64,000 nt of DNA from Polytrichum commune (taxonomy: Eukaryota > Streptophyta > Polytrichopsida > Polytrichales > Polytrichaceae), in contig OX485804.1 in assembly GCA_950295325.1 (NCBI GenBank), forward strand, positions 23,128,001-23,192,000, written 5' to 3'. Position 1 is the stretch's first letter. Each line of letters begins with the position of its first letter. The position numbers were made by a program, and so were the translations under genes. The notes below the pieces were generated by a model. It was not told the DNA's origin. It was given only the letters and a program-made list of their open reading frames with translations, and did not search any database. Of this stretch, positions 864-56,151 are shown in pieces.

Positions 864-3843
864 CTAGAGGTCTTCTGTTGGTACCCCATCCTCGAAAGTA
901 TCTCCATCAGTCATTTTCTCACCTCTAGTGCATCGATCTAAATTATCCTTTGCGAAAAGAATTTGCCGAGCTGGGATGAGAACATTGTCATCGGACGCAT
1001 TCCTTTGTCTTGCCCATGATGCCACAACACAATCTAGGGATTGATGTTGTGGTGCATAGTCCTTGAGCCTCGTCCATCGAAAAGATTTTGCCGTGTCCCA
1101 TTCCTCATAACGTTCGTCTAAGGTCTTCTTGTTCCTTTGGCCAAGGACCGGTACATAATAGACAATCTCAATGGAACGAGGATTAGGACCGATATGTGCC
1201 AAATTCGGCTCAGAAATCACTCGTCCCATCCACACTGGATTAGGACAATCCTCACTAGGACGTAGTAACACATAATGGCCAATCCTGATATGTGCGCCGG
1301 GACGGAAGGTCTCAACAGGTCGAGAACTAGCTGGCCCCACGTAAGCATAATCAGTGATGTTTTCCTCAAGTAGATGCACATTATCCACATGGAGGGTTGG
1401 TGCAATGGAGAACCGTGTAGCTGGCCAGAATGGCTCGCTAAGTTCAGATGGAGTTGGGAGTAAAGGTTGATCCATAGCCGCAAGCACATTCTCCCAATAT
1501 AAAATTGTTGGTGCAATGGACTCCATATATTGACCCGAACTATCTTGATCTGCCGTATCCTTCCAATACTTAATAAAACCTTGCACCCCAAGCTTTATGT
1601 TCACGGAATCTTTCATCTCCCTTTTTGGAACGGGACGGGGGCACCCTACAAAAACAAACATACAATGAGCTCGGAGCAATACCACGGACTAACTGCCCAC
1701 GGGTGATCACCCGTGGGCCACATACTTCACACCATGTATTTTCTAGTGCACTTCTAAAGCAATACAAACAAGGGACCCACTAACCTGTTGGGACCATGGT
1801 CTTCTTTGTGATAGGGTCCACCTTCCAAAGAGCAATTCCTCCATCAGGCACCCAACTTGGATCTGTACAATACACTTTGTACTGCATCAATGGCACTCCT
1901 TGAGGATCTACATAAAAACGGAATTGGTGCGCCTTGGAATGCCCAATAAGTTGATCTTGACCATACTCATTGTAGTATCCCTTCACCCATTCCTTGAAAT
2001 CTGCAACCTCGTGGATTAAGGACGGGACAATAGTGGGTTCCCCAGCAGCCATGAACGATGCCATGAGGTCTGGGAGTGTATGGCAATCCTCAATCTTCAG
2101 CCTTTGTCCAAACCTCCCAAACATTGCATCCACATCCTCATGCGTATGTCCAACAATAAGGAAAGACACCCTGACTTCCCGAAAAATTCCCTTTGCAGTC
2201 AGAGCTGACCAAAACAACATGTTGTATTTTGATTTGTTGTCCTTCGCACAATTGTCCATTTGAACAAGGAGGAGGGGTGGCAAACCTGTAGGAGGAATAC
2301 TTGCGGGCGGTGGCAAGGGAAGTACTCCTGAACACTTCTCTACACCAACCACCAATGCGTCGTGTAAAGGATCACCTATGGACGAAATCGGAATGTGTCT
2401 ACTAGAGCAAACAGGTTGTACCTCAAGTTGACAAAGCAACTTCATCATCGAGGTGATAGTGAAGTTGGCATCGGATGGGTACATATCAAGGACATAATGC
2501 GCATAATTCACATCTGAGTGACCATGTGCAATCATCCCCGCAATGGATATGGGGAATCGCTCGTATTTGTCAACACGTTTGTTTTTGTGCGCGAAGACGG
2601 GAAGAGCCGTTTTCCCATAATCCATTTTGTCATGGATTATACAAAGCACCTCATTGGGAGCATACTTTGACAAAATCCTATCTTTATAGTAACTGTTTCT
2701 ATGAGCCTCCTGCAATGTTAGATGACGAAGGCTAGCATTCGAGATGGCCAAGTGACCAGTTGTGTTCTTTGTGTGTATTCGCAACAAATCCTTGAATGCT
2801 GCACAAGTTCCACAACGCGAGAATTTGTCGCCGGGGCTCTTTATAACATACTGCTTGAAATGTTGTCGATGTAGGCGGCTGAAGGTGGACGTGGAGATAG
2901 GCGTGTACCCTAGGTCTCCGTCCAAGTTGTTCACTTCCTGCAATAGGTTGCACCACGTTGTTCCCACAGGGAGCATCTCCGTCCCTATCGTCTCACCAGT
3001 TGGAAGAGTCCGAGTCATATGGGGCATGGCGTCCGCCCTACCCTCAACCAATACTCCAAGGGTGGCTCGTGCTTGCACTGTATTCGCCCGTGGTTTTCTA
3101 GTTCCTGTATTTCCATGATCTCGAGATCTAACCCCCATCAAGCTTTCAGCCTTGTTCCTATTATATTGTGCCCTTGATATCATATAGATGTTCATCCATG
3201 CTTGAGTGCATATTGTTCTCCCTTCCAACTGCACCATTTCACGTCCGTTGTGCTCATGTTTCTGGATCGATTGGAACACCGACAGGGCTATGAGCTTCCG
3301 AGCATTGAATGGCAATGCGAAGTAGTGTTCCCGAATACTCATCAACAAAGGCCTTGGGAATACCTGGCAACAATGCTCGGAACAACAATCCACCGCTGAT
3401 AACATCCGCGCATGCTCCTCAGTGGCTCCCCAAATTTTCTTCCCAGGTGGCCGAGGTGCACACATCCTCACAGTGTTGTATTGGCGTTTTCCAAGCAAGC
3501 GCCGATGACTTTGAACTTCGCGGGTCGCATTATGATGGACCAACAATATTTCCGCTAATGTATGTCCTTCAAATTTGGTGAGTGAAAGTGGCCATCGGTG
3601 CAGCGTATTCTCCCAATCTTGCGAAATAACATTGTCAGTTGGGTTCAAGATAATAACTCCAACATCCTCAGCCCCTAGGATGCTATTGTCAACACAATCC
3701 AACGGATTTGTGTTGCAAATCAATCCATCACACAAAGCATGGCCCTCATCATCAAAGAGCACAATGGCCTTCCCCTTCAAGTCCGTCCTCGACAGTCCAA
3801 TGTAATGTGGAATCTGAACATCGATATCAAAGTATGTCAACAC
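864..3843 (-). CDS. DUF7869-like protein, candidate transposase-derived gene
   Basis: Two exons read on the minus strand, 3843-1785 and 1645-864, joined by a clean GT-AG intron (donor GTTAGT, acceptor TTTTTGTAG). The phase is kept, giving about 946 residues. There is a Cys pair (RCGTC) near residue 340. Then come motif HDKMDYGK near 404, QMDNCAKDNKSKYN near 528 and VGHTHEDVDAMFGRF near 567. The last two blocks are characteristic of the DUF7869 family as I know it. The spacing of D404, D528 and the acidic HEDVD block could be an RNase H-fold DDE/DDD catalytic core, but that is inference. The C-terminal exon has a region (HYVLLRPSE, WMGRVISEP) that could be a BAH- or Tudor-like fold. The N-terminus is unsettled: the open frame begins after a TGA inside the 3858 palindrome and lacks an ATG, so an upstream exon probably exists. 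The intron carries one palindrome copy. No target duplication was found. Confidence 0.7.
1695..1718. repeat. Perfect 24-bp palindrome in the intron of the DUF7869-like gene
   Basis: GCCCACGGGTGA followed by its exact complement, so the centre is GATC rather than the usual AA or TT. It lies inside the 139-bp intron 1646-1784, so the pre-mRNA could form a 10-12-bp GC-rich hairpin between the donor and acceptor. Confidence 0.85.
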
Positions 3844-3857
3844 ACATTGACCAGAAG

Positions 3858-3879
3858 CTCACGGGTGTTCACCCGTGGG
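3858..3879. repeat. Palindrome copy at the 5' edge of the DUF7869-like ORF
   Basis: CACGGGTGTTCACCCGTG core, TT orientation, directly upstream of the open frame. Read on the minus strand it supplies the in-frame TGA that closes the ORF upstream. Confidence 0.85.
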
Positions 3880-4719: not shown

Positions 4720-5229
4720 GGAAAGTGGATGCACATTGGGGTTATAAAACCAACCTCTTCACTCATGTGAGGCACGCTCTCCATGGTTGCTCCTCAAGGG
4801 TGAAGGGGGGTGGACTCAAATGAGGAGAAAGAAATGACCCTCCAAATGGTGGCCTTTATATAGGTCGTGAGCATGGCCATCAACTTCTCATGAGGAAGTA
4901 CAAGGCATTCCCTCCAAATTCGTAAGTACATAGACGTCATTCCCTCCAATTCCTATCGCTATTAGCTAATCACGTCCTAACCTTCCTCATATTGAATAAT
5001 GATGACCTTCGGTAGTGGGGTTCTACATCGTATGTACATGGAGTGAAAATTTGTTACAAGGCGAAGGAGAGTCTTTGCGGTACCAATGATCATTGGATAA
5101 CCTTTGCATACACCTCATACCACTACCAAGCATACTCATGCCAAAATTACATAAGGACATGTGCACACATAACAGGTCCACCACTTATGATGGGCACCCT
5201 TGCAAAATGAATAGTATGAAGGTTAGGTA

Positions 5230-5559
5230 TTGTTTCATCCGCAAGAGTTAACAACGACATGGGATTCTCTCACCAGAGTTATAGTTCCTTTATATTTTAT
5301 AATTGTGAATAGGATGCCTATTTTGTGGGCAAGGTGCAAGGATAACCCGGTCAAAGCTACTATTATCTTTCATGATTGCAGTCTAATTTGGGAATATGAT
5401 TGCACCCAAATTCAAGGTTTGAAGCTCAACACTAGCCTGCTCCTTTTAGAGCAACTAGCATTGTGGCCCATTGTGTTGCAACTTCGGAATAGTTTCATAT
5501 ACTTCTCTCGAGGGGGGGTAGTCATTGGTTGGAGTAGCAATATACGTGCGAACAAATGA
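5230..5559 (+). other. Open frame without recognisable homology
   Basis: A 109-codon open frame encoding a Trp/Leu-rich peptide. No domain or motif is recognised, there are no splice partners nearby, and the surroundings are repetitive. It may be a decayed exon or chance. Confidence 0.15.
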
Positions 5560-5566
5560 TAGGGTA

Positions 5567-5815
5567 TTTTAAAAACATGGGGGCTAAAAATTATAAATGG
5601 AGTTAAGAGTAATATAGGGTATCAACCAGTATGCTCGACAGCTTTAAAGTCCTATAGGGTATGGAATAATAGGTAATTTGGAATTATAAGTAATGCAAGC
5701 CATTTTTCTATCAACCCAAAGTAGAAATTTACATAATGATAGCATCATTGTGAGAAAAATAAGAGAATTGAAAGTAACACCCCCCCTATAAAATAATGGT
5801 TGTTCGCACCTATAT
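5567..5815 (+). repeat. Dispersed repeat family, copy A
   Basis: Contains the block CCTATAGGGTATGGAATAA followed by TAATGCAAG and a 3' end near TGGTTGTTCGCACC. Related copies lie at about 11214-11407 (same strand) and 7609-7800 and 11519-11700 (opposite strand). A poly-C run of 10 or more bases follows near 5838. Confidence 0.6.
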
Positions 5816-7302
5816 CCTTAACTTTTTAACACACTGCCCCCCCCCCCCAAGATACTTATACTTTCCTAGCCTTGTCAACTTGCCTCGCTCCACCCCATTG
5901 TCCAATGTTGTATTTCATGAGCAAATGTTTTGTTGTATCCCCATGATCATTCTTCTTAACCGACTTGACATGTGGCACACCTCAATTTCATGATAGTGGA
6001 CATTTATCTTTATCAACTTTGTGAATCTTCCATATCAAGTTCACACTTTATGGTTTTTTTATTTCTCAAATTCTCGCCGCCTCATTTCGCATTCTTTGCC
6101 TTCTCATTGTTTTGTATTTACTTGGAAGCCTCTAGCCTTGATGTCAAATTTTCTTTGGTCTTCATTACACTACCTTGGAGTTAGAAGCAAGCAATGTCAT
6201 TTTTCCTTTGGTCTTTGATTATTGTACATCAAAGCAAACAACTCATACCCAACATAGTTGGAGTGCGTAATCTCATGGGTTTGAGAGTGTACGTAGTGTA
6301 GTTGGGGGTTTGATTATGGGAAGAGTGTTGGTAGCGTGAGCAAAGCGCATAACGTTTTTGGAGTGTAGTGTATAGTTGTGCGGAATAGGGAGCAATTTGT
6401 TTACTAGGATAATCCTATACATGATGTAATGTTCTTTGTGAAATAGAGTTATGCATTTCCTAAAATTGATTTTGTGAAGTTTTGAATATGGGTACCAAAT
6501 CTTGAAATTGTTCACAACATGTACTGAAATTGGTTGTTTAAATAATGAACTTGGTTCATATTTCCAATGAAATTGGAAGAACCTATCGCTAAATTGCTTT
6601 GTTAAATCATGAATTTGAGTTTGCACTTTTGTGGATTCATCTTACCAAAGGAGTATGTGTCACTTTCCTTTATAAACCTCTTGGTTTTGTTCACGACTTT
6701 GAAACATTAAACATCAAAACCCTAAGGTCACAATCATGTACTTAAGTTATCGAAGATGACCATTGAGAATTATTACATCAAAACATAAAACCTTGAATTT
6801 ATAATTATGAAGTTAAGTGGACCACCTTTCCCAAACAATCTCAACCTTAACCTCAAACTCAACCTAAACCCCGATGGTTCACAGCAGTTTTTTCAAGTTA
6901 AGTTATCCAAGATGATTGTTGAACACTCTTCTCAAACAACCTCAACCTCATCATCAACGGTTCACAATGGCTTGTGGTGGTTTTATCAAGTTAAGTTATC
7001 CAAGATGCCCATTTAATAACTTTCTCATGTGACCTCAAATTTAGCACCAATGATTCGTGACCATGCCCAGCCTTGTCAACTTGCCACAACCTTGCCTCGC
7101 CCACCCCCATTAATAGTATGATATAGGATGTGATGACTCAATACCTACCTAGACTCCTACTATGGCATTATACACAATTTGACAATTCGACCCTTCTCCC
7201 AATAGCTCAAGCCTAGGGTTAATCCATCTTTGACTTGAAAGCGCCACATGTTACAAAATGAATTTGCATGTATTGACTGAAACATGCAAAATGCCACCAA
7301 AG

Positions 7303-7327
7303 AGAGAGAGAGAGGGAGAGAGAGAGT
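7303..7327. repeat. GA microsatellite
   Basis: A run of AGAGAG with one GGG interruption. Confidence 0.8.
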
Positions 7328-7449
7328 CCATTTTCATGGCACCTCTTTGATTTGCACAACCCATTTTTCATCTTTTAGCATCACTTGTCATTCTTATCAA
7401 TCATGATGTTGGACATGTAGCAACATACCATAGAGTTCCTTTGCCACAA

Positions 7450-7520
7450 ATATGTGTGTGTGTGTCTATATGTATGTATGTATGTATGTATATATACATA
7501 TACATATATATATATATGTG
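7450..7520. repeat. GT / TATG / TA microsatellite block
   Basis: Adjacent runs of GT, TATG and TA dinucleotide or tetranucleotide repeats. Confidence 0.8.
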
Positions 7521-7608
7521 GCCAACTCGGGCGTCAATGCCCTATTTACACTGGGGAAATCATCAAATTTATAGCACTACGCTAGAGATGTTGATCCATT
7601 TATAAACC

Positions 7609-7800
7609 GGTTTAGGGTTTAGGGTTTAGGGTTTAAGGTTATTTATTTCCTTAGCATTTTCAGCTCTGGGTTAGTAGGATAGGGCCTTGCATTACTTATA
7701 TTTCCAAGTTACCTATTATTTCAAACCCTATAGTACTTTAAAGATGTCCAACGCCATTTTTGACACCCTATATTATTCTAAATCATTTTGTTCATTTTAC
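7609..7800 (-). repeat. Dispersed repeat family, copy B, with telomere-like start
   Basis: Begins with three to four TTTAGGG units (7609-7638). It continues with TTATTTATTTC, TTAGCATTTTCA and CCTTGCATTACTTAT, and is the reverse complement of copy A over its body (AAACCCTATAGTACTTTAA). Confidence 0.6.
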
Positions 7801-8319
7801 GTCCCCATATACCCTCTCAATTTTTCGCACGTATATTTCTACTCCAATACATCACAACCCCCCCCCCCCGGTATGTGTCCACTACATTTCTAGCTGCACT
7901 TCCTAGGTTTTACGCTATATACTTATGGGCCCACCACTTATGCCCTTTGGATGACCGTTTTGAGATCCCATGTCGAAATGATGGCTTAAGGCTGACCGAT
8001 CGACAAGGCTGTAGAAAAACGCGACTCCAATCATTTGGCATGTCCTTGGATAATGCACATGTTTGGGTAGACTTAGTTTGGACACCACGTGTGTGATTGG
8101 AACTCCCAATGCAGCTAGAGGACATATACTCCTTAACCTAAACCTTATGCCACAACACATACATTGAAACAACAATACAAAACAAACACATACAACCCCT
8201 TAATAGATGCAATGAGATACAATGGCTGCAATGTCAACCCCCTCTTCCCAAACTTGGATGCCCCAAATAGATAGTTGCACCCAACATAGCCCGGCTTCCA
8301 AAAGGAAGGCAATAAACCC

Positions 8320-9500
8320 TATAATGAGCCCCCCCCCCCCACCACCCCCAAACTCATGTACATTATAGAGCAAACATACTCAATTTTTCCTAATAAAAAT
8401 TTCTTCCCCTTTTCAGGATGTGCTCTTCCATATGTGGAGAAAAACCTCACATTCAAGAGTACCTCTCATCGATCCGACAGAAAATATAAAACTAAACCCC
8501 CTTGGTTTAGACTAATTCCGTAACTTTGAAGCTAATTACGGTGTCAAACCAATTGAATTTTTAAATAAAATGTTTTTGGATGAATGTTGGGTGTGCTTGT
8601 ATGTGAGCATGTTTTCTTGTCTTTGCCCTCGGATTGATAGGCTTTGCCTACGCATGGGGAATTTGTGATAGCATTTACATCCTCAAGGGCTTGGGCTTCT
8701 AATGTGAGGCCCTATATACATATCAATGTTTTTTTGGCCAACGAAATGGGATTATCGCATACGAGCATATTACTCTCATTCATCCAACAATGAAACTTTA
8801 AACTAGTATGTAGTAAGGAGGTTATTTTTCAAAGTTTATTGGAAACCCTATTTAGTTGAATTGACCCCAAATTAGTCTAGCCCAAGTTAGGGCACACTTT
8901 CATGTACCAATCGTTTTGGTGAAACAAAATAGAGTTCTCTGACGTTGGTGAAGGTTTTGCCGGTATCTTCAAGCATCTTTTGGACTGAGCACTCCCATGT
9001 GGAGTGGCAATGGTGGTTGGGGGGGGGGGGGGGTAGCAGATTCGGCTCGTTGCCCAAAACACAAGTTGAAACGTGGCCATCCTTGTACTGACGCACTTTA
9101 GTTGTTGATTGACTAGACTGATTGATTTTTAATCATGGGATGCTAGAAAAATGAAAAACAAAATCTCCATAAATTAAGAAAACTTTGGGCAAGGTTTGAA
9201 TAGTAAGAACATGGCATCATGAACTCTCAATGTAAATACAACAAATTATGGTTCACACTAACAATGTATATAAAAACCAAGGTTTCTCCGCTCAAATGAA
9301 AATCAATTTCCATGTGCTAGAATACCAACCTAGTCAAGTTTCCCTCCTCAAACTACAACTATCAATGAGCCCCACATACCTTATTAGTTTGGGCATGTGC
9401 CATCCTGACCCATTACACCAGTCCGTATGAATCATTTTGGGTTCATATCTTGCATGAACCCAACCACATACATTAACCCTTGCAAACCATATGCCCATGC
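8320..9500. other. Gene-poor region with homopolymers
   Basis: Contains a poly-C run near 8329-8341 and a poly-G run near 9019-9032. Short open frames across these runs have no recognisable content. Confidence 0.4.
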
Positions 9501-11000
9501 CCCTGTAAAACCTTCATATGCATGTACGCACATAGCCCCACTCATAAGCCCCCGTGACCCGCTTTGGGAAAAAAAATAAAAAAATGAATTTATTATCTTT
9601 GTTAACTAATTGTCTTTTTTAATTAATTGCCAAAATAAAAAATGAATTTATTTAGTTATGTAGCATGTGAGCTCTCAAAACAACAGTCAGTACTCAATGC
9701 AATAAACTCTAATTGTTGCACCATAGGTAGGTATCATGGAATGATTCAATACAACATCTACTAAGGGGAGGGAGACCAAGGGAGGGGAAGTCGAAAGCAT
9801 TGGTAACAATAGGACTAGAGATTTCTATTTAGAGATTATTAAACTACTCTTTAAAATCGGGGTCAAATACCTTTGAGTAACCTTTAAGTAACCTTTCCAT
9901 AATGTCATGCTCCAATCCATGGGTATGACTTGTGGACTTGCCATAAAGTATTTTTGAAATCACCTTTAAGGAGAATATAAAAGCTCAATTTTGGACCGTG
10001 TAGCCATAGATGTTGCATCCATGTGGGATTTGTTGTTGCTCAAATTTAGTACTTTGGTACTTAGGTTGTCAATCCATGTGCACTATCGACCCTACAATGA
10101 CCGAAAATATTTTGAGAGTGTGCGATTGACTATGTTAGGTTATAATAAGGCTCTATGTGATAGCATGGTTATACTTACATGAGTACCCTTAGATGTGCAC
10201 TTTGGGAAGGACATTCGAGGCCGTAAATATGAAAGTCAACAAATACCTTAACCGTACAAGCCCACTTGAAATGGCCGGGGATTCGTGGCACTCAAGTAAA
10301 GTCATCCGGTAACAAAAATCGGATGAGTCCATCAAGAAGCTCGGATGGAGCTTACTTTAGTGAAATACCTCCGAGTTGGCATGTAAGACCTACTTTCTCC
10401 CTCATAGTTATTTTATAAATATTAATTTGTTGGCAAGGGGCAATGATGTGGCCTTGGATGCTCTAAGCCTATTTTCCAACCTCCCATGAGATGTTTCCAA
10501 GGCCATGATGTGGCTTTGAATTTCACATGGTTATTTTGATAAATATTGTAAGATATCAATGTGTGCAATATATAATTATGAAGTGTTGTCATAGACATCT
10601 TTTTGTTCATAATTCATTTATTTTGCACATGTGTGATTGTTCAAACATTTGTAATATGGCACAATAATATATATCACCTTATGATAAATTGGTGAACTAA
10701 AAAACTCAATTCAATATTAGTATTAGTATTGTTATTATTAGTATTTGCATAATAGTATTAGTATTAGTATTAGTATCATATAATTATATTTATTTAAAAG
10801 TAACGGTTATACACTATGTGATTTGAAAGATAATACAATATGTGATGAGGATAAATTATTAAATAATTTAGATAGGCTATAGTCAGAAACTTATGATTTT
10901 CTCAGTAATATATACCCCATCTATAACATTGTCCCACGAGTCTAATTCCAAATAACATATCATTTATTTATACCTTATTCTCTTATAAACACTTGCACTA
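9501..11000. other. Gene-poor AT-rich region
   Basis: No gene is recognised. A trinucleotide-type tract (TTAGTA) lies at about 10715-10780. Confidence 0.4.
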
Positions 11001-11213
11001 ATCTATCATTAGAATGACAAATATAAGTTATTTATGGTAAGTCAAGCGGATTTTAGTGCACTCAATATGGGATTTGTAGTCAAGCGGCCTTCAAGAATGC
11101 AATTTTTGGTCGGGTTTAGAAATTTTCTCTACAAGATTGCCCCAACCCATATTAGATACCTCCAAAAGTTCGTGAGGGGGTATTTAACGTCCGCCCATGT
11201 TAAAGCAAATATA

Positions 11214-11407
11214 ATATGGGGTGTCAAAAATGACACTGGGCATCATTAAAGTACTATAGGGTATGGAACAAATCGATTATTTGGATTTGTAATTAATGCA
11301 AGGCCCTTTTCTACTAACCCGACTAAGAAAACTACATAATCATAGCATGTGAAGAAAAAAATTGAAAGTAATAACCCCATATAAAATAGTGGTTGTTTGC
11401 ACATGGA
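11214..11407 (+). repeat. Dispersed repeat family, copy C
   Basis: Same strand as copy A (ACTATAGGGTATGGAACAAA, TAATGCAAGGCCC, TGGTTGTTTGCAC). Together with the inverted copy D at 11519 it makes an inverted pair about 110 bp apart, which could be the two ends of one element. Confidence 0.55.
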
Positions 11408-11518
11408 TGCGCGATAAAAGAGAATTAGTTGTTACTAGACTCCTAATTGCATATGAGTAGGACACAAATAGATGGCGAGCAACTAGTAAGGTCCAACACT
11501 AAGTGGACTACCACACTA

Positions 11519-11700
11519 ATGGGTTTAGGGTTTAGGGTTATTTATTTCATTAGCATTTTCAACCTTGGGTTAATAGAAAAAGCCTTGCATTTCATATAAT
11601 TCCAAATTACATATTCTTCCATACCCTATAGTACTTTAAAGATGTCCATTGCCATTTTTGAAACCTTATATTATTCTAAGTCCTGTTGTTCATTTTTAGT
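11519..11700 (-). repeat. Dispersed repeat family, copy D, with telomere-like start
   Basis: Starts with GGGTTTAGGGTTTAGGG at 11521 and continues like copy B (TTATTTATTTCATTAGC, GCCTTGCATTTC, CCCTATAGTACTTTAAAG). Inverted relative to copies A and C. Confidence 0.6.
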
Positions 11701-11719
11701 GTGGCCCACTGTAATATTA

Positions 11720-13100
11720 TTGTACTTTCGTTGCCTTACATTGGATTTTCATCCAAATATACAGATGAAAAACCCACAGTAATGGAAACCCCTATTTTGA
11801 AGGGTATGCTATGTTATATTGCAGATTAACAACAACACCGTAAGTGTCGTCACATGACACTGGGTGTTTGAGTGCACTTATTAAAATCTTGACATGACAT
11901 GCCATTAGTATGCTTAAGGATGTATTCCTCTTAAATATTAAAATGAAACACATGACACTTGCCAATAGTGAGCTTAAGCATCTTACCCTTGGGAATGTAG
12001 TGGGAATTAACAAAACCGTTTAATATGAACATGTACGTTATCACTATATCACAGTAGACAATATAGCAATCATCCATGACAATGTTGCATCACAAGTTGC
12101 TAACATGAGAAGGTCAATGGATGAACTCATCCATCATCATGACATGGCTCTAAGTTATACCTCATGTAGCGTTCACATATGAAGGGTATGGGTTGGCATG
12201 TGAACTATGTTGAGGATCTGTGATCATATGTTTACTAATTTCCAATCTCAATATGATATCCTTGTCCAATAATTCTTAAGTGAGTCAGTGCCTTTAGAAT
12301 TCAAGTTGATGTTCCCTAAGCTCGGGGGGGGGGGGGCATTCCCTTGTATATTTTGCATACACCTGCGATAATGACCTATTAAAATGGGGGCTATTTACCT
12401 ATGAGAAAGGATTATAAGGGATGCTAATTTTTGAAATAATGGTAAATTGTTGTGATTATTTGCACCCTATTGGTAATTATAAATTCTTGGATGGTTGATT
12501 TTATGGTACCCTATATTACTTATATGCAATTTTTCCCCCCTGATTGCCCCCATTCCTTAAAGTGTATGATACAGTAGAATTCTCGTTAGAAGCACGTGTA
12601 CAAAGTAAGAGAAACAAACATTTACTAGGGTTTAGGGTTTAGGGTCACACTGAAGTCCGGGCAAAGCAAAACACTAAACAATAACAACAAAAGATTGCAA
12701 TTACATGTCATTAAGCAACACGAGCCAACGAATGAAAGTTGTGTTGGATAACACAGTTAGAAACCTTGAGGTCTTAGGGAACAGGCCAGCCACATGTGTC
12801 TCAAAGTCACATTTACAAGGTTTGCAGAAGCCCTACAATTGATGCCTTGATCTTCCAATCCTACACATTGGTAGAAAATCCCACGCCATGCAAGCAAAAT
12901 CCACCTAAACTAGCTAGGCTACCATTTACACATGTGGGAGATATGAGGGTAATCGAACTGAAATGGCTACTACAGATTTCAAGGTATACTAATGATCATT
13001 CAACCCTTTCTCCAAATTATATCTCCACATGTGTGAGATAGTACAAATTTAACAGGTTTTATTTTTTATTTGAAATGAACTCATTCAATGAGTTTGCATC
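11720..13100. other. Gene-poor region
   Basis: No gene is recognised. It holds a poly-G run near 12326-12337 and a short telomere-like stretch, TAGGGTTTAGGGTTTAGGG, at 12626-12644. Confidence 0.4.
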
Positions 13101-13108
13101 TACCTCAT

Positions 13109-13405
13109 CTAAGGTGTAGATTTTGCTAGTTGATTCATTGTTACTAGAGACACTGTTGAGAGAATAGCATCCACATCAACCCACACACAATCACTCTCAA
13201 CATACTTATATTTGTTGAGACCCAGCTGTTTTTTTAACCAATGGAGGTAAGCCATAGTAGTTGGGAAGAGCGTCTCTCTATTTCCGTTCTGGACTGCACG
13301 TTTCATCAAGTCAATGGGTTGCCAACAATTGCCCCACTTAGTACCAACCTTCACCCTTATCTTTTGAACCCTTCCTATATAGAACATGCCATATTTTGGT
13401 GGCAA
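13109..13405 (-). pseudogene. Unrecognised coding remnant
   Basis: A 98-codon open frame with a protein-like composition (segments RVQKIRVKVGTKWGNC and YVESDCVWVDVDAILSTVSL). The second block has the regular hydrophobic/acidic look of a real domain edge. It resembles, from memory and without certainty, the C-terminal part of uncharacterised repeat-associated proteins of non-seed plants. No partner exons are seen. Confidence 0.3.
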
Positions 13406-13619
13406 AGTATTTAATTTTTGAAACTATCGCTTTTTGTCCATGCTATTTTATATGTACCACTTAGGTAATTTAATCATGTTTTGTCAAATGCTATATTACA
13501 TATAATCATGTTTCACAATCCCAAAGCACCCTATACTACATCTAATAATTTTACAAATTTTACGCCAAATTTTTATACAAGACCCTATATTTTATCGCAC
13601 GTAGTTCCTACGTTTTTCG

Positions 13620-15300
13620 CCAGTGCCCCCCCCCCCCGAGTCCCTAAGACATTAATGTCAAAGCTAAGTGTTCATGCATGTAAATCATTCTCATCTCTAA
13701 TAACTTATGGAGTTATTTTTATCTCTTTCATGGATTGAATGACCTACGTATTATTCTTCCTCTATTCAATTATATTTCAATATTTCAATTTGAAAGAGTC
13801 TCAAGACTTTATGTATTCCTAACCTACTCCTCGCTAAAGTATCTTTACGAGATTCCACAAACCATTCAATTCATAGAGTACACATGATTTACATGAATTC
13901 ATTCATTGAAGTGTTTGACCCATTTCCTATTCAAGTTCTCATTTCCGTAAATCTTATGCCATCATTTAGAATTCCCTTTAATCGATGAGGTATGGTTATG
14001 GAGATGCAATCTTAATATTGCTCGAGATTCATGTGGTGCTTGATGTGGCCCACTCGTTGGCCACCTCCTTTGTCATCCTCTCAATATGATTTCGATTCCA
14101 ATGTCTCCCGCGGCCTTGCATATCACCTTGTACTTCAATATGTTAGTTTCCAAAGTCCTTTCTCTTTAGTTGACCGCTAATTTTGGCTAAGTCCATATGT
14201 GTTGCATGCAAAACAACCAACCCCCACCCAAAAATTTGAGTGGGATAAATGATAACTCTAGTGCCTTTGAGAAGGTCATTCTTGAATTTGTGTTATCGCA
14301 AGCATGTGTGTTCATATTAGATGTCGACTATGAACGTCAAAAATCTTAGCCAATGAAGAGCACATAATGAATCTAGTAATAATATAACTTAAGATACAAT
14401 TACAAGAATAAACGCTAGGAGAATGACTTTAAAACCAAGTTATGAAGTGATTCTCAATGCATGGGGGTGAGGGCAAAGCCACAAAGAGATTTATGCTAAA
14501 ATTACCTAATTTTTTTTTTTATGTTAAACGATTTATGTTCATTCCTAGTAGTATTTACCTATCCAGTAGGGTTTATTGGGTATGGGAGGTGGGCATGTAC
14601 CCATTATGCGCGGCAAGTATTATGTGTGATGATTTCTAATGGCCAGCAACTTTGATGCTTTATAAGTATCCATGGCCGCTTCTTATGTCATGCCATTATT
14701 TTCGTTGCCATAATATATGTTATATTTAAAATTTTGAATTCTTGGAACTCTAATGGTTCATAGTCCAAGAGAAAACAAGAGAACAATCGAACTTGAGTTC
14801 ATGGGCTAAGGTGAAAGTGAGCCTATTATGGATGCTCACGACTTCATCAATAAGGAATTGGAAATCATAGCTATGCTTGATGTCAAGCGCGATTGAGCAT
14901 CTTACACGCATATTATGAGAATGTGCAATTGATTTTGGTATGTTATAATAGGAATCTATGTTACAGAGTAGAATGTTAAAGTATGGAATCTATGTTATAA
15001 TATGAACCTATTTTAAGCATTATCAATACTATTACCATTTATCGATTGAAAGTGATTATTATTATTACTATAAATCACTACTAGTCAGCCATTAGTAATT
15101 CATAATTATTAATCACTATTAAACATTATTAATGACTATAATGACCTATGAAGCACTAGCATTCACTATTATTCACTACTAGTCACTATTAGTTACTATT
15201 AGTTACTATTACTGGTAATTACTATTAATCACTATAAATCATTTTTACTAATATTACTGATATTAACAATAGAGTGAATATGACAATTTACTAACAATAA
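13620..15300. other. Gene-poor AT-rich region
   Basis: Holds a poly-C run near 13625-13637 and TTATTAC-like imperfect tandem repeats (CACTATTAGT variants) between about 15050 and 15260. No coding region is recognised. Confidence 0.4.
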
Positions 15301-15313
15301 AAATAATATCAAT

Positions 15314-15519
15314 CATACTAATATGAGTTATCTTAATAAGTACTAATAATGAACTTACTAATATGAGTTATCTTACTAAGTACTGATAATTATCTTACTA
15401 ATACGCAGTTATCTTACTAATTACTAATAATTATCTTACTAATACTTAGATATCTTACTAAGTACTAATAATTATCTCACTAATACTTAGATATCTTACT
15501 AAGTACTAATAATTATCAT
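15314..15519. repeat. Tandem repeat, about 41-bp unit, five copies
   Basis: Units read approximately CTTACTAATA then a variable hexamer, TATCTTACTAAGTACTAATA and ATTAT, with small substitutions between copies. Confidence 0.8.
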
Positions 15520-16604: not shown

Positions 16605-16657
16605 GAAACCACATTCGTATTGAAAGAATTTTGACATGGTCCCCCCAAAGAACCCTG
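16605..16657 (+). other. Candidate upstream or alternative first coding exon (MVPPKNP)
   Basis: A strong acceptor (TTTTGTTTTGTGCAG) precedes it and a GTGAGT donor follows. The exon contains ATG at 16636 and seven codons, then ends in phase 1 with a G. The H3-tail exon at 17488-17518 also ends in phase 1 with a G, so either could splice to 17622. If instead it joins the acceptor near 17449, it gives a short upstream ORF that stops at once. Its role cannot be settled without transcripts. Confidence 0.4.
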
Positions 16658-16732
16658 GTGAGTGTCCATTACATAAATCCCAGTTTTTCTGTTAGTGTGA
16701 ACGCGGTTATCTGAAAGTGGATATTTGAAGTG

Positions 16733-16943
16733 CCCACGGGTGAACACCCGTGGGCTTTTGCACCCACAAGGTGGAGAGGCCCACGGGTGAACACCCGTGG
16801 GCCTCTCCCCCCATCCGGTTGAATGTGCCCACGGGTGTTCACCCGTGGGCTTTTGCACCCACAAGGTGGAGAGGCCCACGGGTGAACACCCGTGGGCCTT
16901 TGCACTCACCAGGTGGAGAGTCCCACGGGTGAACACCCGTGGG
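16733..16943. repeat. Palindrome array 1 upstream of the H3-mimic gene
   Basis: Five palindromes start at 16733, 16780, 16828, 16875 and 16922, at steps of 47, 48, 47 and 47 bp. Four have the AA orientation; the middle one is TT. The 25-26-bp spacers are related to each other (TTTTGCACCCACAAGGTGGAG, TTTGCACTCACCAGGTGGAG, CTCCCCCCATCCGGTTGAA). Confidence 0.92.
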
Positions 16944-17157
16944 CAGTGGTGATTCTTCACAAGGTCCCTAACATGTCCGTGGTCACATGTCGACATCTTC
17001 GTTTTTTTCTGTTCTTTTTTCCTAATTTTGTACCAACTTGAGGGAGACTTAACTTGTATAGATATTACCGGTTTCGGGACGGGTTGAGATTTTTTTTGCC
17101 TTTCAATTCAAGGTTTTTGGACGTGGACGAGCTAAAACTTTGTGAAAAATCAGCCCT

Positions 17158-17308
17158 CCCGTGGGCCTCTCCCTCATCTGGTTGAAAGTGCCCACGGGTG
17201 TTCACCCGTGGGCCTTTGCACTCACCTGGTTAGGAGTGCCCACGGGTGTTCACCCGTGGGCCTTTGCCCTCACCTGGTTAGGAGTGCCCACGGGTGTTCA
17301 CCCGTGAG
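17158..17308. repeat. Palindrome array 2 upstream of the H3-mimic gene
   Basis: Copies at 17191-17212, 17239-17260 and 17287-17308 (last arm CCCGTGAG) repeat with an exact 48-bp period, all in the TT orientation. A lone right half-site is at 17158. The spacers share TTTGC(A/C)CTCACCTGG. Confidence 0.92.
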
Positions 17309-17487
17309 CCTTTGCACTCACCTGGGTGGGAGATTTTGTTTGATAAATGTCTTTTTGATTTTCTATGTAGACAAATTTGGTGTGTCTCTGTAAGCATTTG
17401 AAGGTTTTAGACATAAACATGTGATAGACAGTTGGTGTTTCATTCAGGTACATAGAGGTGTCGAAGTGTTCTCTCATTTGAATTGAG

Positions 17488-20400
17488 ATGGCAAGAACTA
17501 AGCAAACAACCCGTAAAGGTATAACCACAATACCTATGTGCACGTCAATGTTATATGAGTTATAGAATCCGTGATAATATTGGGCTATGCTGAGTACTTA
17601 CATGTGCATTGTCTTCTGCAGTATCGGGAGGTGTGGGCAGACGGGTGAATTACGATGTTGAAGTTTTGGGCCCAGATTTGCAATGGTTCATGCAGTATAG
17701 TGGTTTCGGAGAGACAACGGTGCTCTCGCTTTACACGAGGACTGGGCCCAATTCCACATGGAGAAAGTACATGAAGGCAAAACATGTACTGGACATTCAA
17801 GCGGATAGGAGCCGGGTATTGATAATGTGCAAGTCGCCTGAACGGAAGAAGGACTTCAAGGTTGCAGCACTCGTGGAGACTTTCTCATATGCGGATGTGA
17901 ATGAAGAGCTCAACAATGAGGGAGAGAACATCCGCTTATTGAACGGTGATTTCCTCACCTATTGTATACTATATTGCGAGACCAATGTGCACACGAAGTC
18001 CATGGAGGAGAGGTCAGTAATGATCGAGCAGGACTACAAGTCTGCTCTAGCACGAGTGAAGGTTATAGTTGAGGAGGCAAAGGCGGCAAGGTTGGAAGCA
18101 TCTTTGAAGAAGAAGGAAATCCGCGATGGCAAGAGGAAGGATCTTGCTGATGTACGTGCCACCTCGTCTAGGAAGAAGACGAGACCCGATGAAGGACAAC
18201 CACTGATTGTCGAGGACACTGACGGCCAGGATGTTGTCTCCAAGAGAGGCAAGAAGAAAACACCCGAGGATAGTCCATTTCTTGAACTCGAGAAGATTCC
18301 CAAGCGATCAATGCATGGGCCTCCAGACAAATCGGTTGGAGACAGGTTGATGGATATGAAGTTGTTCAAGAACAAGTACCAAAGGGTGTGGATATTCGGT
18401 GAAGGCGTGAATGGCTATGTCAATATTGACAATATAGAGCGGGGAGATGCAGGATATAATTGCCGACCCATATCCGAGGCGCATTTGAAGGAGATCAAGA
18501 CATGGTTATTCAACTATGCCATCATTCCGAAGATTCATCCCAACTTCTTGACAATCGTTCCTTCGGATAGGCGAACTAAACCATTCAATTTTGAGGAGGT
18601 GAAGGACAAATCGTTCCACGTGGTAAATGGACAGCACACGTTAGCAGCCTGTCTCGAGTATGTGAATGACCCTAGCAGCACAGATGAGGTGAAGAGGTTT
18701 TTCTCGAAATGGCCTTGTAATGTGGTCTGGGCCCCTGAAGGTGATGACGACCCTCTGTTCCACCTCTCTGGTGTTCTGAACCTGGATAGTGAGTACAGGA
18801 AGCACTTTCCGTCATTTACGGAGTGCATTCAGCACGCTAGGAAGACCTGGATTAGGCGAGGAAGACCTGACCGAACTGTACGCGAGAAGGCCAGCAACAC
18901 GGAAGCTTTTAAGAAGTGGAAGGTATTTTTCAAACCTGTGACTTTTGAATTTCTCATTTCTGTGACTCCCACGGGTGTTCACCCGTGGGCGACTATCATG
19001 TTGTTGGTGATTGCTAGAAATACATTGAGGTTTTTTTCATAGAGATTGATACATTGCCGGTGTTTGATACAGGCATTTATTACGTGCGTCATGTGGACGT
19101 TCCGCGTGGAGAAGGAGACCAACCTGATCATGGAGCACGTCTTGCCTGTATTGAGCGATGACATATGGAGGAAGTGGGAGCGGATATTCAAGGATTACGA
19201 GAGTGGTGACTATGTAGACCCGAAGACCGGAGCTCTTATGAAAGAGACAAAGGGGTTTAAGTCGAAGAAGGTGGTCAAGAACGACCTGAAACAATTTCGG
19301 GGCTTGACAGAGATAGAGCTCGACATGGCAGCGAATCAAATCCTCACCACCAGAGATGGAGAGGAGCACCCTCGACATACCTTGAAGACTGTGCGCGATT
19401 GGGTGATGAACAGGAAAAAGAAGAATGAAACTTATATCGCGATGGCACAGTGTCTAGACCCGACTCCATTGTATATTGTGCACGTCGATCAGAAAGAGAC
19501 CATTGATCGTGATTGTTGGAGAGTATGGAAGTATGCGAATAAGTTTGGTAAACTCCAGCGAGACCGACTTGTAGACTTGCTTGGAGCGGAGTACCTTCTT
19601 GGCGCTATGAACCCCACAAGGAAGAGAGTACCTATTCCGGACCGGTTTAAAGAAGGAGTGAGGAACATTTTAGATACACATAACACCGAGGTTACACCCG
19701 AGCATGTCGTGTTGTCTATTGACAACAACTACAAGATCAGTGGTGGGACAGTGCTTGCACCAGTCCTGCACGCGTACATGGACACAAGGTTTCTCCCCGG
19801 AGTCCAGGCGGGAAAAGACACTGGGGGGCGTGTGAAGGAGTGTATGGATTCCACTCTGCAAGGTCTTCGTCGTGATTTCCCAGGCATTTTAAAGTCCCTC
19901 CAATTGTGGACTGTGATTTCAGAATATCTGGATCGGCATTTCATTCACAATGTGCTGAAGGCGCACCTTCCGAGCAACGCCAGATTTTGTGACGCCTTAT
20001 ACCATGGCACTAAAGAGGAGAAAATTGCATCTCGCGATTGCTTCTTCGAATCAAATGCTCTTCGGGTTACAAACTACATTTTTCCCAATAGGGGCGAATC
20101 AAGTTCGGAGGTGGCTGTGCGGCTCTGTGGAGGCCGGAAGATGTTGGACGTCCATGACCCGGGGCGATATAAACGTTATTCAGTGAAAAGGGCGTATTCC
20201 AATGAGGAGGCCAAGTGTTTATTCAAGGGGGAGTTGAGGATGCAGACCTACATAGATATCATCAAGCCTTCATGTCTTGAGGGGTCTTCTTTTCTCAATA
20301 TTTGTGGAGGCAATAAGGCGCACATAGTGGCACATGTAAGTAATGAGCATCTTTTCTCCTAAGTGGTTCTTGAATTTCTGAATATTATCGTTGGTTTGGA

Positions 20401-23400
20401 TGGTGTTTTGGATAACCTAACCATAAACCAGGTTGGGAGGCCCACGGGTGAACACCCGTAGGCCTAGACATCCACCTGCTTTATATCCACCTGGTTGATA
20501 GCCACCTTCTCGATAGCTTTCCTGACAATTAGTTGGTTGACAAATAGTTGGGACTATTGGTTTAATTCTATTCGCTTTTGGATGTAGACTAATTTGATTG
20601 AGAAGTTATTTATTTCATGCCTTGGTTTTTGCAGGCATTGGGTATGAAGGTTTTGAATATTGTGCCGGCAGAGATGCTAGAGGTGGCGAAGACGAAGATG
20701 ATTGCCGCAGTTGACTGGAGCATACAAAGGTGGAATGAGGAAGGAAAATTCGCTGCCCAGGATTTGGAAGAGGAAGAAGGGCGTATCGATATGGATTCCA
20801 TCATTGAGCGCGAGATTGGAAGAAAGCGTGCGAATGACATAAATGAAGAGGACGTAGAAGAGGAGGAGGAGGAGGAGGAAGAGGTGGAGGAGGAAGATGA
20901 CCCAGTTGTTGTCCTAGGGGAGTCTGCGGAGGAAGAGGAAGTGGCCGACGAAGAGGAAGAGGAAGAGGAAGAGGAAGAAGAGGAAGAGGTGGTCATGGAC
21001 GACGCACTGGCGGAGGCCATGGCTGAGGTCATGGCAGAGGTGGAGGAGGAGGCCTTCAATTACAAGGCGTCAGCCATGGCGGAGGCCTCTTTGGAGGCCA
21101 TGTCCCCGGAGCAGGTTCCCCACGGGTGTTCACCCGTGGGGGAGGGGGAGGGGGAGGGGGAGGGTGAGGAGGAGCGGCAAGAGGATGCTTCCAACTTAGA
21201 GGAAGTTGGTCGTCCACAAGCCGAGCACAGTGTCCATCACCCTGTGGGATCTTTCTCGTCTGGGATCCCATCTACACCCGGCCGCGGGTTTGCACAGTTT
21301 GACACATCTAGACGAAGTCAAGAACAATTAGATGTTCAACCTATGGAAGAATATGAGGAGGATGAGCGTCCGCAGTCAGCTAATCCTGCTGCAAGGTCTG
21401 CATCGAAACCGACTGCAAGAAAGAAAATGAAAGCTCCTCGAAGGGGAAGGTCATCTCTACGTCCTGCTAGAGTTGGAGATCACTCGCGGTCTTCGGAGGC
21501 AACGGAGCATTCTGGTCTTTATCGCGAGGTTGAATCTGGCCAAGCGGATGTTCCGCGGGATGCAATCATGTCTGAAGCTGTGCATGTTGAAGGGACAAAC
21601 ACAGATTTGAACGTCAGCTCACCTGTTGAGGACGTTGCCGCTGCCGTTCTCGAGGTGCTAGGACATGGGCGATCAAATCGTGATTCACCTGGTGTTGTGG
21701 TTGCAGAAGAGCCTACTGTAGCGGCACCATCCAATGAAGCAGAGGAGGTTATTCGAACCGAAGTCATATGCTTGGATAGTGATGACGATGTGCCCGAAAG
21801 ATGCGTAGAACTAGACGTGAGGGTGAAGGTGAGAGATCGAGTTCCACATCGGGTTCGGGGGACGTTTGCTGACTACATGACGGATGATTCCGAGGATGAG
21901 GATTATGGGAAGCCTGGGTACAACAGAGTGAAACTCAACTTTGTTGATGACCCTCACCCGGTGTTTGCTGGGAGACCTGACATGGGCAAGGAATCGGATG
22001 GGAAGGACAAGGTGCATTTTGCCCCATTTGTGGACAAATACTTGGTAGATGTGCCCGAGAACGTGCGATTGAATCTTGCGCATTTGTACAAGTCGTACGA
22101 CTATCACAAGATGTTCGCTTATCTCTCCACACCAGCGTTTTGTGAAGCAGTGAAGGTGAAACATATTCTTCATGCCGCTGCATTAAAGAAAATGAGAAAG
22201 AGATGGACAACGTTCGAAGCTCCCAAACATCGTGATGAACGAGGTCAATTCGCGGGGTCCTCGGCCGCTCAAGCCGGCAGTGTTGTGGACTCTACGTTGG
22301 AGATCATTGACATTACTGGAGTGCCAGAGTCTCCAAGGAGGGAAGTCGATGTTGCAGTTGCGGAGTCCTCAAGCCCTCATGTCAAACGTGTTGTTGAGGG
22401 TCAACCGGCATCGTCCGAAATGGTAATACATACTCCCTTTCCAATGCTATATTGTGTTTGGCGGTGGAAGCAAACTCGTCAAGATTTCTAAAAGTGTCTT
22501 TGCAACAGGTGTTGGTTGCGGCAGAACGGGATGTCATTCCACCGAGTTCTCATGACGACCCTGCACATGGTGGGGATCCCCCCCTAAGCCAAGCTCAAGG
22601 TATCATATATAGTGTTATTTGAATGCAATTGGTCCCACGGGTGAACACCCGTGGGACCACCTGTTTATACTTTTCAATTTCCATACAAATTGTTATCTCT
22701 CGAGTAATATTTATATAAGGGACTTTTGATATTGTGCCCACGGGTGTTCACCCGTGGGAGATTATGGGTTTGAGCGTGTGGATCTCATAAGTCATGTGTG
22801 CATGTGGTTACAGGTCATACAGCCACTGCCGGAATACCACCTTCGGTACGATATTTTCCTCGATCTCGCAAAACTAATCCATAAATGTGGAGGCATTCTT
22901 TTATCTTGCATACTCATGTGTACCCAACGTGTTGTTTCATTCGATAAAAATCATGTAGAATATACTTTTTCCTTAGATAGAAATTCTTTACAATGACTTT
23001 CAATTTTGTCATCGCCAGATCCTCACCTCTCCAACCACTGTTGTCCATCGGAGAGAGAAGATATGGTTAGTGCTGGATGTGAACGGGATCCTGGTGAGGT
23101 CAACAAAGTGCGACAATGTCAACACCAGGAAGACTGTTGAATCACAACATAGCCCTCAGATAACTGGGGAGTTGGCTCCACTCTTTCTCCCATATAGTGC
23201 CCTCATACCTAGGAGAGGACTGGGACGCTTTCTGCGTTTTGTTCTCTCAAACTTCCATGTTGTCATCTGGTCGTCGAAGCTTATGAAGAATCTTCAGCCA
23301 ATTGTCCGGCACTTCTTCAATGGTTGTAGACATCCAGAGTATGTGTTTGGGCAAGAATTGTGTCACACTCTGAAGGATGAGAGAGGACAAGTTCTTCCTA

Positions 23401-23801
23401 GTCCTATGAATGTTGATTCAAGCTTCTTCATGAAAGACCTGTGCGCATTTTTTGAGTGGAGCCGGACGCATCCAGTGCCGCATACGAAGCAACCCAGTCA
23501 TAGGACTACATTACTTGTTGATGACTCCCCTTACAAATGCATCCCAAACCCTCCTGGGAGCTACATTAACCCTGTACCATTTATGTCAAACCAAAGCTTG
23601 GATACTCTGCATAGTTACCTGCAAAGGCTCTTGAGTTCTCAACAGTATGTGCCAGATTTTGTGGGGAGCAACCCTTATCCATCAGGACAGGGGCCCTTCA
23701 ATCTAGAGCTGCCAAGTTCTCTGATTTATAAGCAATCATTAGTTAGACATAAAATACTGACTTCTGCCCGTATGGTTCCAGAGGCTCAGATGTTAATGTA
23801 G
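17488..23801 (+). CDS. Multi-domain protein: H3-tail mimic, ParB/DGQHR-like, MTase-like, FCP1-like phosphatase
   Basis: Predicted exons: 17488-17518, 17622-18922, 19073-20335, 20635-22422, 22509-22599, 22814-22845 and 23019-23801. All junctions are GT-AG and keep phase, giving about 1,762 residues. Residues 1-10 read MARTKQTTRK, then VSGGVGRR: histone H3 residues 1-9 with one change (A7T), plus the G12-G13 pair. A Lys/Glu-rich helical stretch follows. Near residue 350 comes FHVVNGQHTLAAC after a YNCRPISEAHL segment, resembling the ParB/DGQHR fold. VLSIDNNYKIS and, at the exon 3/4 join, LNICGGNKAHIVAHALGMKV weakly resemble methyltransferase motifs IV (DPPY) and I; both are degenerate. Exon 4 holds a Glu-rich tract. 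The last exon is an FCP1/NLI-type HAD domain: VLDVNGILV, VVIWSSKLMKNL and LLVDDSPYKCIPNP. The second Asp of HAD motif I is Asn. A split into two genes at the short exons 5-6 is possible. Confidence 0.65.
18968..18989. repeat. Palindrome in intron 2 of the H3-mimic gene
   Basis: TT-orientation copy inside the 150-bp intron 18923-19072, about 45 bp after the donor. Confidence 0.9.
20441..20462. repeat. Palindrome in intron 3 of the H3-mimic gene
   Basis: AA orientation with one change in the right arm (CCCGTAGG), within intron 20336-20634. Its flanks contain CCAGGTT and CCACCTGGTTG, matching the spacer motif of the upstream arrays. Confidence 0.85.
21119..21140. repeat. Palindrome inside coding exon 4, in frame
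   Basis: TT-orientation copy within the open frame, read as HGCSPVG between an Ala/Glu-rich segment and a Gly-Glu dipeptide run. The flanking repeats GGGGGAGGGGGAG make this a fast-evolving linker. Confidence 0.85.
22634..22655. repeat. Palindrome in the intron between exons 5 and 6, first copy
   Basis: AA orientation. The inverted symmetry extends outwards to 28 bp (GGTCCCACGGG...CCCGTGGGACC, 22631-22658). Confidence 0.9.
22737..22758. repeat. Palindrome in the intron between exons 5 and 6, second copy
   Basis: TT orientation, 103 bp after the previous copy and about 55 bp before the acceptor at 22813. Confidence 0.9.
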
Positions 23802-24048: not shown

Positions 24049-24473
24049 CAATGTGGTAGTTGATTCAATGAATGTATCAGGCCACTTGGACAATGTTAGT
24101 TGTGTTTTTGGGAATTATGGTTGTCATAGCGAATTTTAATATGTAGGACTTAGTCGGCTATAATTCATATGTTTTGAACATGTTCATCTTTACTAAAGGG
24201 CAACGGACGGGCTCCTCTTGCACATAATGTCCTTCTTCCATGGACTCTTATGTTATTGTATCCTAACAGCATTCCCCATTCCAAACGCGACCTAAGAACT
24301 ATATTGCCAGTCCACCATGTCGACAACGTCCTCCGGATGCTAACGCCGACTTCGCCGAAGTGACATCTCCATGCCCTAAGGTAATTTATTTTCCACATGA
24401 ATCCCAATTTTTTTAGTTGTGTTTCATCCCAGGGATTCTAATATCAATTTGTCGTTTGTTGTGGTAGACACAT

Positions 24474-24854
24474 ATGCTCCAAACACACGATGTTGCGCTC
24501 GCGGTTGCGGTGGCTGTTCCGGTCGCGGTTGAGGAGGCTGTTCCGGTCGATGTTGCGGGTCCGGTCACACGCGCTCGGGTGAAGAGACACCTTTCTCTCC
24601 AAACCACTCACCCCAATGAGCCCACGGGCTCGGGAAATAGTTCTGGATGTTGGAGGTGTAGTTCACCCAATACCACCTCATCCATGTCTGATTACGTGGC
24701 TGCAAGGGTGAAACAACTTCGAGAAGCTACAGTTTTGATGGAGGAGAAAAAACGGCTTGAAGAAGTCAAGCGCAAGCAATGTACTATAGCTCAAAGACAA
24801 CCTCATGACAAGATGTTGAAAATGATTAAGGATTCATACTCCTCTTGTAGATAG
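24474..24854 (+). CDS. Possible terminal exon of an unrecognised small gene
   Basis: A 126-codon open frame ending in TAG. An acceptor-like GTTGTGGTAG lies just upstream at about 24468, and the frame continues as THMLQTHDV. It contains a Val-Ala-Val-Pro low-complexity stretch, a Cys-x-x-Cys-type segment (GCWRCSSPN) and a basic, probably coiled-coil tail (VKQLREATVLMEEKKRLEE). No family is recognised. It sits between two palindrome copies, as the larger upstream gene does, and may be a further exon set of that locus. Confidence 0.35.
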   Translation: MLQTHDVALAVAVAVPVAVEEAVPVDVAGPVTRARVKRHLSLQTTHPNEPTGSGNSSGCWRCSSPNTTSSMSDYVAARVKQLREATVLMEEKKRLEEVKRKQCTIAQRQPHDKMLKMIKDSYSSCR

Positions 24855-25433: not shown

Positions 25434-25825
25434 CCACGTTCCCAATGCACGTTCCCATTGGTACGAATTGTCTCATAATGGCCCAATTGGCTCATTTTAG
25501 TTAATATCCCCATGCCTGCTTTTTATACATCTACCTTTACTTTAGAAAAAAATTAATAACCTTTTTAAATATACACACTAGAGAAAATTACCTCTCCTTT
25601 ATGTATACTATGTATGCCAATGTTTCAAATAATATCCCTTCTTACACCCACGTTAGTTCGTACGTGATATGAAGAATCCAGCCCCGGGGTAATTAACAAA
25701 TGCAAATCACAATTGTTGTCATTTCAAGCTTCATGATTGAACAAGATATGCAAAAAGTTATAAGAAGTCAAGTAAAGACCATCCTCCTCTTCTCACGATC
25801 ACATGATCTCCCCCAATTATTTTAA

Positions 25826-38320: not shown

Positions 38321-38399
38321 CGTGCAACCCACCTGATCGATGATCCCACTGGCCTAGTCTTTTTCCACAGGTGGATTCGATCCTTTTTGTGTGATACCT

Positions 38400-55961: not shown

Positions 55962-56099
55962 GGTGGCCTCTGCCACGACCGTAGCGGGAGGACAACTTCT
56001 CTCGGCAAACTCGAAAAATGTGCCGAGAGCGGGAGTAGCTTTACAGGGACCTTGTGCATAACGGGCTGGGTACCAAGCCCGTTGGCCCGAGCCCGGGCT

Positions 56100-56151
56100 C
56101 ACTATTCCCGGTAGTTACCGTTGCCGGGAATGGGTTGGCGATGCCCTTAAT
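56100..56151. mobile_element. Putative Harbinger terminus
   Basis: The plus strand reads GGGTTGGCGATGCCC then TTA, so the minus strand shows TTA followed by GGGCATCGCCAACCC upstream of the MYB-like ORF. This fits a Harbinger end with a TTA target site. The opposite end was not located. Confidence 0.45.

Follow-up and report, generated by a model that had tools for sequence, protein, structure and literature searches.

We found that gene B, a gene of the moss Polytrichum commune, encodes a predicted protein whose start, in its commonest form, reproduces residues 1–9 of histone H3 directly after the initiator methionine, and that this gene is carried by a multi-copy DNA transposon of about 25 kb with terminal inverted repeats (TIRs). 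The sequence analysed is a 64,000-nucleotide stretch of contig OX485804.1 (the window, to which all coordinates refer). A first-pass annotation had noticed the H3-like start and assigned it to a single multi-domain gene; gene B is actually part of the transposon, which has palindrome arrays of its own. This combination suggests that the element imitates chromatin to handle host gene silencing.

Gene B is carried by a multi-copy TIR DNA transposon

The element spans about 370–25513 of the window, and its ends and its second gene, which we named gene A, are as follows.

370–392, + strand: left terminal inverted repeat; AT at 370–371, then GGGGATATTAACTAAAATGAG; exact 23-bp inverted match to 25491–25513
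864–3858, − strand: gene A, with open frames 864–1688 and 1780–3858
25491–25513, − strand: right terminal inverted repeat; AT end at 25512–25513; pairs with 370–392

In Pfam scans of gene A, the larger frame (1780–3858) matched DUF7869 (PF25273, E 2.1e-46) and the frame 864–1688 matched no family; we infer that gene A is a putative transposase. The two genes diverge, and about 11 kb of AT-rich DNA (4800–15500), with no open frame longer than 122 amino acids, separates them. Past gene B, towards the right end of the element, a small open frame (24468–24854) is possibly a third gene; its Pfam scan gave nothing above the cut-off.

We searched the genome containing the window (408 Mb, 64 contigs) for further copies. 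The 21-bp core of the TIR occurred 40 times in the forward and 41 times in the reverse orientation, and a control search with the reversed pattern gave no match. Twenty-eight inward-facing pairs of cores lay less than 70 kb apart, with a median distance of 25.1 kb, and 25 of them enclosed gene B, as judged from 51 gene B places entered into the comparison. Of 11 elements, 10 had AT outside the core at each end, and in the eleventh the left end was AA; this AT may be a 2-bp target-site duplication or a part of the TIR. With paired TIRs around a gene, repeated in the genome, the element is a TIR DNA transposon.

A genome search with the first 444 amino acids of gene B returned at least 98 matches, several of which are fragments of a single copy. 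The best matches had 97–99% identity, and other groups had about 93–95, 81–85 and 66–74%. By hand count, 32 of the 47 top-ranked matches, each covering at least 377 residues, were free of stop codons. Another 54 copies were fetched, of which 20 came as 10-kb slices and 34 as shorter ones of 1.1–1.4 kb. In most of the 10-kb slices the likeness to the window extended to both slice edges, and copies that have spread in the genome were 97–98% alike over 10 kb.

Exon structure and domains of gene B

The spliced frame of gene B consists of seven exons and remains open for 1762 amino acids.

17448–17518, + strand: exon 1; short 5′ UTR, in-frame TGA three codons ahead of the ATG, then MARTKQTTRK (17488–17518)
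17622–18922, + strand: exon 2; VSGGVGRR, a beta-rich N-terminal domain (weak PH-like match), a basic linker and a weakly ParB-like NGQH domain
19073–20335, + strand: exon 3; no Pfam family up to E 1
20635–22422, + strand: exon 4; long Glu-rich stretch, no Pfam family up to E 1
22509–22599, + strand: exon 5 of the spliced frame
22814–22845, + strand: exon 6 of the spliced frame
23019–23801, + strand: exon 7; NIF/FCP1-like domain, stop codon at 23799–23801

The start at 17488 and the junction of 17518 to 17622, both proposed in the first-pass annotation, agree with the sequence: intron 1 (17519–17621) is 103 bp long, has GT..AG ends and interrupts the frame in phase 1. For the five introns after it, we chose GT/AG sites by hand.

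In Pfam scans of exons 1–2, 3, 4 and 7, taken up to E 1, the sole family was the NIF/FCP1-like one in exon 7 (PF03031, E 3.6e-11, 43.5 bits against a cut-off of 21.8). FCP1-type phosphatases usually have the catalytic motif DxDx(T/V); the window copy reads LDVNGILV, with DVNGI in place of the motif and Asn in place of the second Asp. The earlier label of an FCP1-like protein is supported by the family match. The proposed multi-domain protein likewise keeps its H3-like tail and its FCP1-like domain, and its ParB-like part is weakly supported by the NGQH motif and a match to phrog_1033 at E 0.15. No ParB was found in Pfam, NCBIfam or PDB profile searches, and the AF2 model made for this question had a pLDDT of 45.5. 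The NGQH motif of gene B is also present in one member of a distant family. A distant family found at 23 genome places (L083 among them) shares the NGQH domain at 24–28% identity and may be another transposon family. No histone fold or family appeared in Pfam scans of exons 1–4 and 7 or of 38 exon-2 sequences. The Glu-rich stretch of exon 4 (20840–21000) could bind the basic tail within the protein; it resembles the acidic regions of histone chaperones.

The H3-like N-terminus is conserved among the copies

In the window copy, MARTKQTTRK matches eight of H3 residues 1–9, as had been noted before, and the commonest form among the copies matches all nine. When the first 30 amino acids were searched against PDB with phmmer, histone H3 accounted for all of the best 60 of 82 hits (up to E 10); the best E value was 0.095, and the match is statistically weak on its own because it is short. 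Exon 1 was present in all 55 copies checked (the 54 fetched copies and the window), and we could read it in full in 53 (52 fetched slices and the window). The slices of the other two, L036 and L062, stop just short of it; a pattern search placed their MARTKQT starts about 0.1 and 1.4 kb ahead of the exon-2 match. Beyond the 55 checked copies, MARTKQT starts of the element type, with AGA for Arg2, also lie at C6:11096452 and C6:42679128.

The 53 peptides read MARTKQTARK (36 copies), MARTKQTTRK (13), MAKTKQTTRK (2), MARTKQIARK (1) and MARTKQTSRK (1). Lys4, Arg8 and Lys9 were kept in every copy, so that the equivalents of H3K4 and H3K9 are intact throughout, and Arg2 was kept in 51 copies. Residue 7 is Ala in 37 copies and replaced in 16; the Thr7 described earlier is correct for the window copy and is a minority variant of the family. 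After Lys9 the protein continues with V-x-G-G in 51 of 53 copies spliced by script, the other two (L043 and L053) having a misplaced acceptor. Val in place of Ser10 and, in most copies, the spacing to the Gly-Gly pair of H3 at 12–13 are as the first reading had them. Since Ser10 is Val and Lys14 is not kept, the mimic is exact for residues 1–9 only.

To evaluate conservation at the nucleotide level, we counted by hand the distinct changes in codons 2–10. Eleven were silent and four changed an amino acid (binomial p = 1.0e-4, or 2.3e-4 with transitions weighted, the distinct changes being not fully independent). L009 and L050, for instance, differ at 5 of the 31 bases of exon 1 and have the same amino acids. 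In six representative pairs of copies, exon 1 was identical at 26–29 of 31 bases versus 70–83% identity in intron 1, which is thus diverged, though still alignable. The presence of exon 1 in all 55 copies and the excess of silent changes show that the match to the H3 tail is not due to chance, and they point to purifying selection on the H3 1–9 tail of gene B. By sequence, the conserved block at the N-terminus is an H3-tail mimic.

The block should also be the true N-terminus of the protein, because in 52 of 53 copies the ATG is preceded, at a distance of one to three codons, by an in-frame stop. The ATG itself and a donor of intron 1 starting with GTA were found in all 53. Upstream of the ATG, the acceptor TTCATTCAG followed by G was present in 43 copies; eight others (L022, L037–L042 and L059) depart from it at a single base, with AG and G intact, L028 has TTTAG followed by A, and L030 has a different sequence. 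This acceptor would join exon 1 to a leader.

16605–16657, + strand: probable leader exon; ATG at 16636; splicing to 17448 gives a short upstream open frame, MVPPKNPGT, then a stop
16658–17447, + strand: leader intron; eight palindromes in two arrays (five and three) with 47–48 bp spacing

The leader exon sequence was found in 21 of 53 copies. Among these are 19 of the 21 copies whose slices reach at least 1.1 kb upstream, the slices of most others being too short. From the leader ATG (MVPPKNP) the frame enters exon 2 in the phase that the H3 exon also has, so that a tail-less isoform by exon skipping is possible.

Relatives of gene B beyond the host genome were found in metagenomic sequences (n = 61). 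One of them, P0005, is 79–80% identical, starts with MARTKQTARK and reads on through the intron; with the conservation in the copies, this diverged relative supports an H3-tail copy at the N-terminus. It is the only one of the 61 with an H3-like string, and the other 60 cannot count against the tail because their gene calls are exon-sized.

Two explanations would deprive the tail of a function like that of H3. The exon may have been captured from a host H3 gene long ago and kept for reasons of start codon or splicing. The peptide is indeed the start of H3, and the genome has 19 other MARTKQT starts, presumably those of host H3 genes, with CGN for Arg2. The element exons have AGA for this residue (AAA in two copies), and when four element variants were compared with ten of the other MARTKQT starts, even the nearest differed at 3–4 of 20 bases, so that any capture from H3 must be old; the excess of silent changes further points to constraint on the peptide, and we regard a frozen capture without H3-like function as very improbable. 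It is also conceivable that the spliced model is wrong and the exon untranslated, given that splicing of the upstream exon (ATG 16636) to exon 2 would be in phase. The retention of donor and ATG in all 53 copies and the constraint on the peptide, across subfamilies with a diverged intron 1, make this hardly credible.

Palindrome arrays of the element

A 22-bp palindrome recurs along the element and nowhere else in the window.

577–25274, no strand: 24 palindromes CCCACGGGTGNNCACCCGTGGG, 22 bp, with up to 4 mismatches, all within the element

The other 38.9 kb of the window and 10 dinucleotide shuffles of the window contained none. Eight of the 24 are those of the leader intron, directly before the H3 exon. 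In the 21 copies for which the slice reaches 1 kb or further upstream, 2 to 10 palindromes (up to 1 mismatch) lay ahead of exon 1. The motif has two forms: L045–L052, L054 and L058 have only or almost only the C-type, a symmetric variant with C/G for T/A (GGGCG..CGCCC), L053 has both types, and the other copies with palindromes there have the T-type. The two types are split largely by subfamily. One exact palindrome (21119–21140) is itself coding: it falls within exon 4, where its in-frame translation is PHGCSPVG.

A possible role in escape from silencing

We put at about even the chance that gene B encodes a transposon-borne anti-silencing factor with an H3-tail decoy or hook. In the mechanism that we propose, gene B would be expressed and its initiator Met cleaved before Ala, leaving a free Ala1 as in H3. 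The gene B protein, or the product of gene A, would bind the palindromes and so become concentrated at the promoter region of its own element. There the tail would act as a local decoy or hook for host enzymes of the H3 tail, such as H3K9 methyltransferases of the KYP/SUVH type and H3K4 demethylases of the LDL/LSD1 type, and the element would thereby escape silencing, with an effect like that of the VANC proteins of Arabidopsis transposons and by a different molecular device. That the gene B product displays an unincorporated H3 tail at the palindrome arrays and occupies H3K9 methyltransferases, H3K4 demethylases or both, forming a histone-mimic anti-silencing system of a transposon, is a tentative proposal, with a chance somewhat below even. 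SUVH4/KYP would be a worthwhile target, since a protein of a geminivirus, a plant DNA virus, is reported to inhibit it (PMC4606454).

Several observations count against the anti-silencing explanation. Gene B is absent from 3 of the 28 TIR pairs, and 25 of the 81 TIR cores have no partner. Three of the 53 copies have lost Arg2 or Thr6, Ser10 and Lys14 are not those of H3, and the replacement of Ala7 in 16 of the 53 is a poor fit to chromodomain readers. In the 770 bp upstream of exon 1, three of the 53 (L030, L055 and L061) are devoid of palindromes. Searches of gene B identified no DNA-binding domain, the Pfam scans of its exons 1–4 and 7 yielded no family that would suggest VANC, and the FCP1-like domain of the window copy is without one Asp of its motif. 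The possible tail-less isoform is a further point of this kind.

The tail could serve other ends. It may be methylated at Lys9 or Lys4 like H3, so that a host reader anchors the gene B protein and a transposition complex to chromatin, for the targeting of insertion or for segregation with parS-like palindromes. The invariance of Lys4 and Lys9, the unchanged Arg8, the weak ParB-like match and the confinement of the palindromes to the element within the window are consistent with such a tether. ParB membership, however, rests on the weak match to phrog_1033, and chromodomain readers bury Ala7 of H3, so that its replacement in 16 of 53 copies makes these readers less likely; we judge the tether somewhat unlikely. 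A quite improbable alternative is that the tail, like a SNAG domain, recruits an LSD1-type demethylase as a corepressor, by which the element would silence host or rival genes or limit its own copy number. The demethylase would turn over a perfect substrate with Lys4 and not hold on to it, SNAG having Phe at this position, and self-repression is hard to reconcile with the spread of copies so closely alike. This hook would nevertheless accord with the retention of Lys4, Arg8 and Lys9 in all copies and of Arg2 in nearly all, and with the published description of SNAG itself, in which it mimics the H3 tail and recruits LSD1 (PMC12612597).

The anti-silencing explanation lends itself to experiment. 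The mimic comes in dozens of copies and in diverged subfamilies, and the motif types provide a built-in control, so that escape of a transposon from silencing is directly testable with a single short peptide and a single 22-bp site. An active element would also be a natural tool to manipulate plant H3K4 and H3K9 enzymes.

Relation to known systems

One of the closest known systems is VANDAL/VANC of Arabidopsis. VANDAL elements encode a MULE transposase, whereas the gene B element has 21–23-bp TIRs, AT ends and a DUF7869 gene; its motif is a 22-bp palindrome, and gene B has the H3 tail at its N-terminus. Both are plant DNA transposons in which a short motif, with subfamily variants, is concentrated in the element as tandem repeats in an intron and elsewhere. 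The targets of VANC21 are reported to have motifs that are tandemly repeated in introns and upstream regions and whose types are specific to subfamilies (PMC5735166), and VANC proteins are reported to bind noncoding regions of their own transposon and to induce loss of silent marks (PMC10398659). Motif arrays in noncoding DNA of the element, in tandem and with subfamily variants, were found in the window and in the fetched copies.

Mimics of histones have been described in viruses, pathogens and host regulators. Like gene B, viral and pathogen mimics such as influenza NS1 are H3-like tails encoded by a parasitic genome; these are short or C-terminal, whereas that of gene B comprises nine residues at the N-terminus and belongs to a plant transposon. 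From histone H3, in which ARTKQTARK likewise comes right after the start Met, gene B differs by the histone fold, which the scans of its exons 1–4 and 7 did not find. The SNAG domains of Snail1 and GFI1 share the N-terminal position and are loosely H3-like, whereas in gene B, which a transposon carries, residues 1–9 are identical to H3 in 36 of 53 copies. Like the tail of gene B, SNAG mimics the H3 tail on a protein other than a histone (PMC12612597). A literature search by title and start of abstract, with most subscription journals outside its coverage, found no report of histone mimicry in a transposon among the matches listed, and the titles among the listed matches on giant and moss transposons held nothing on the gene B element. 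In a 2026 review of gene capture by plant transposable elements, a word search of the main text found neither "histone" nor "mimic" (PMC13317346).

Other contents of the window

Outside the element, minus-strand frames at 54616–56114 gave NAM-associated Pfam matches under the curated cut-off and possibly encode an accessory protein of another transposon. Class III peroxidase-like frames (PF00141) lie at 35228–35725 and 62158–62613 and, together with the intron structure, fit a plant host; the frame at 37760–38353 looks related to them.
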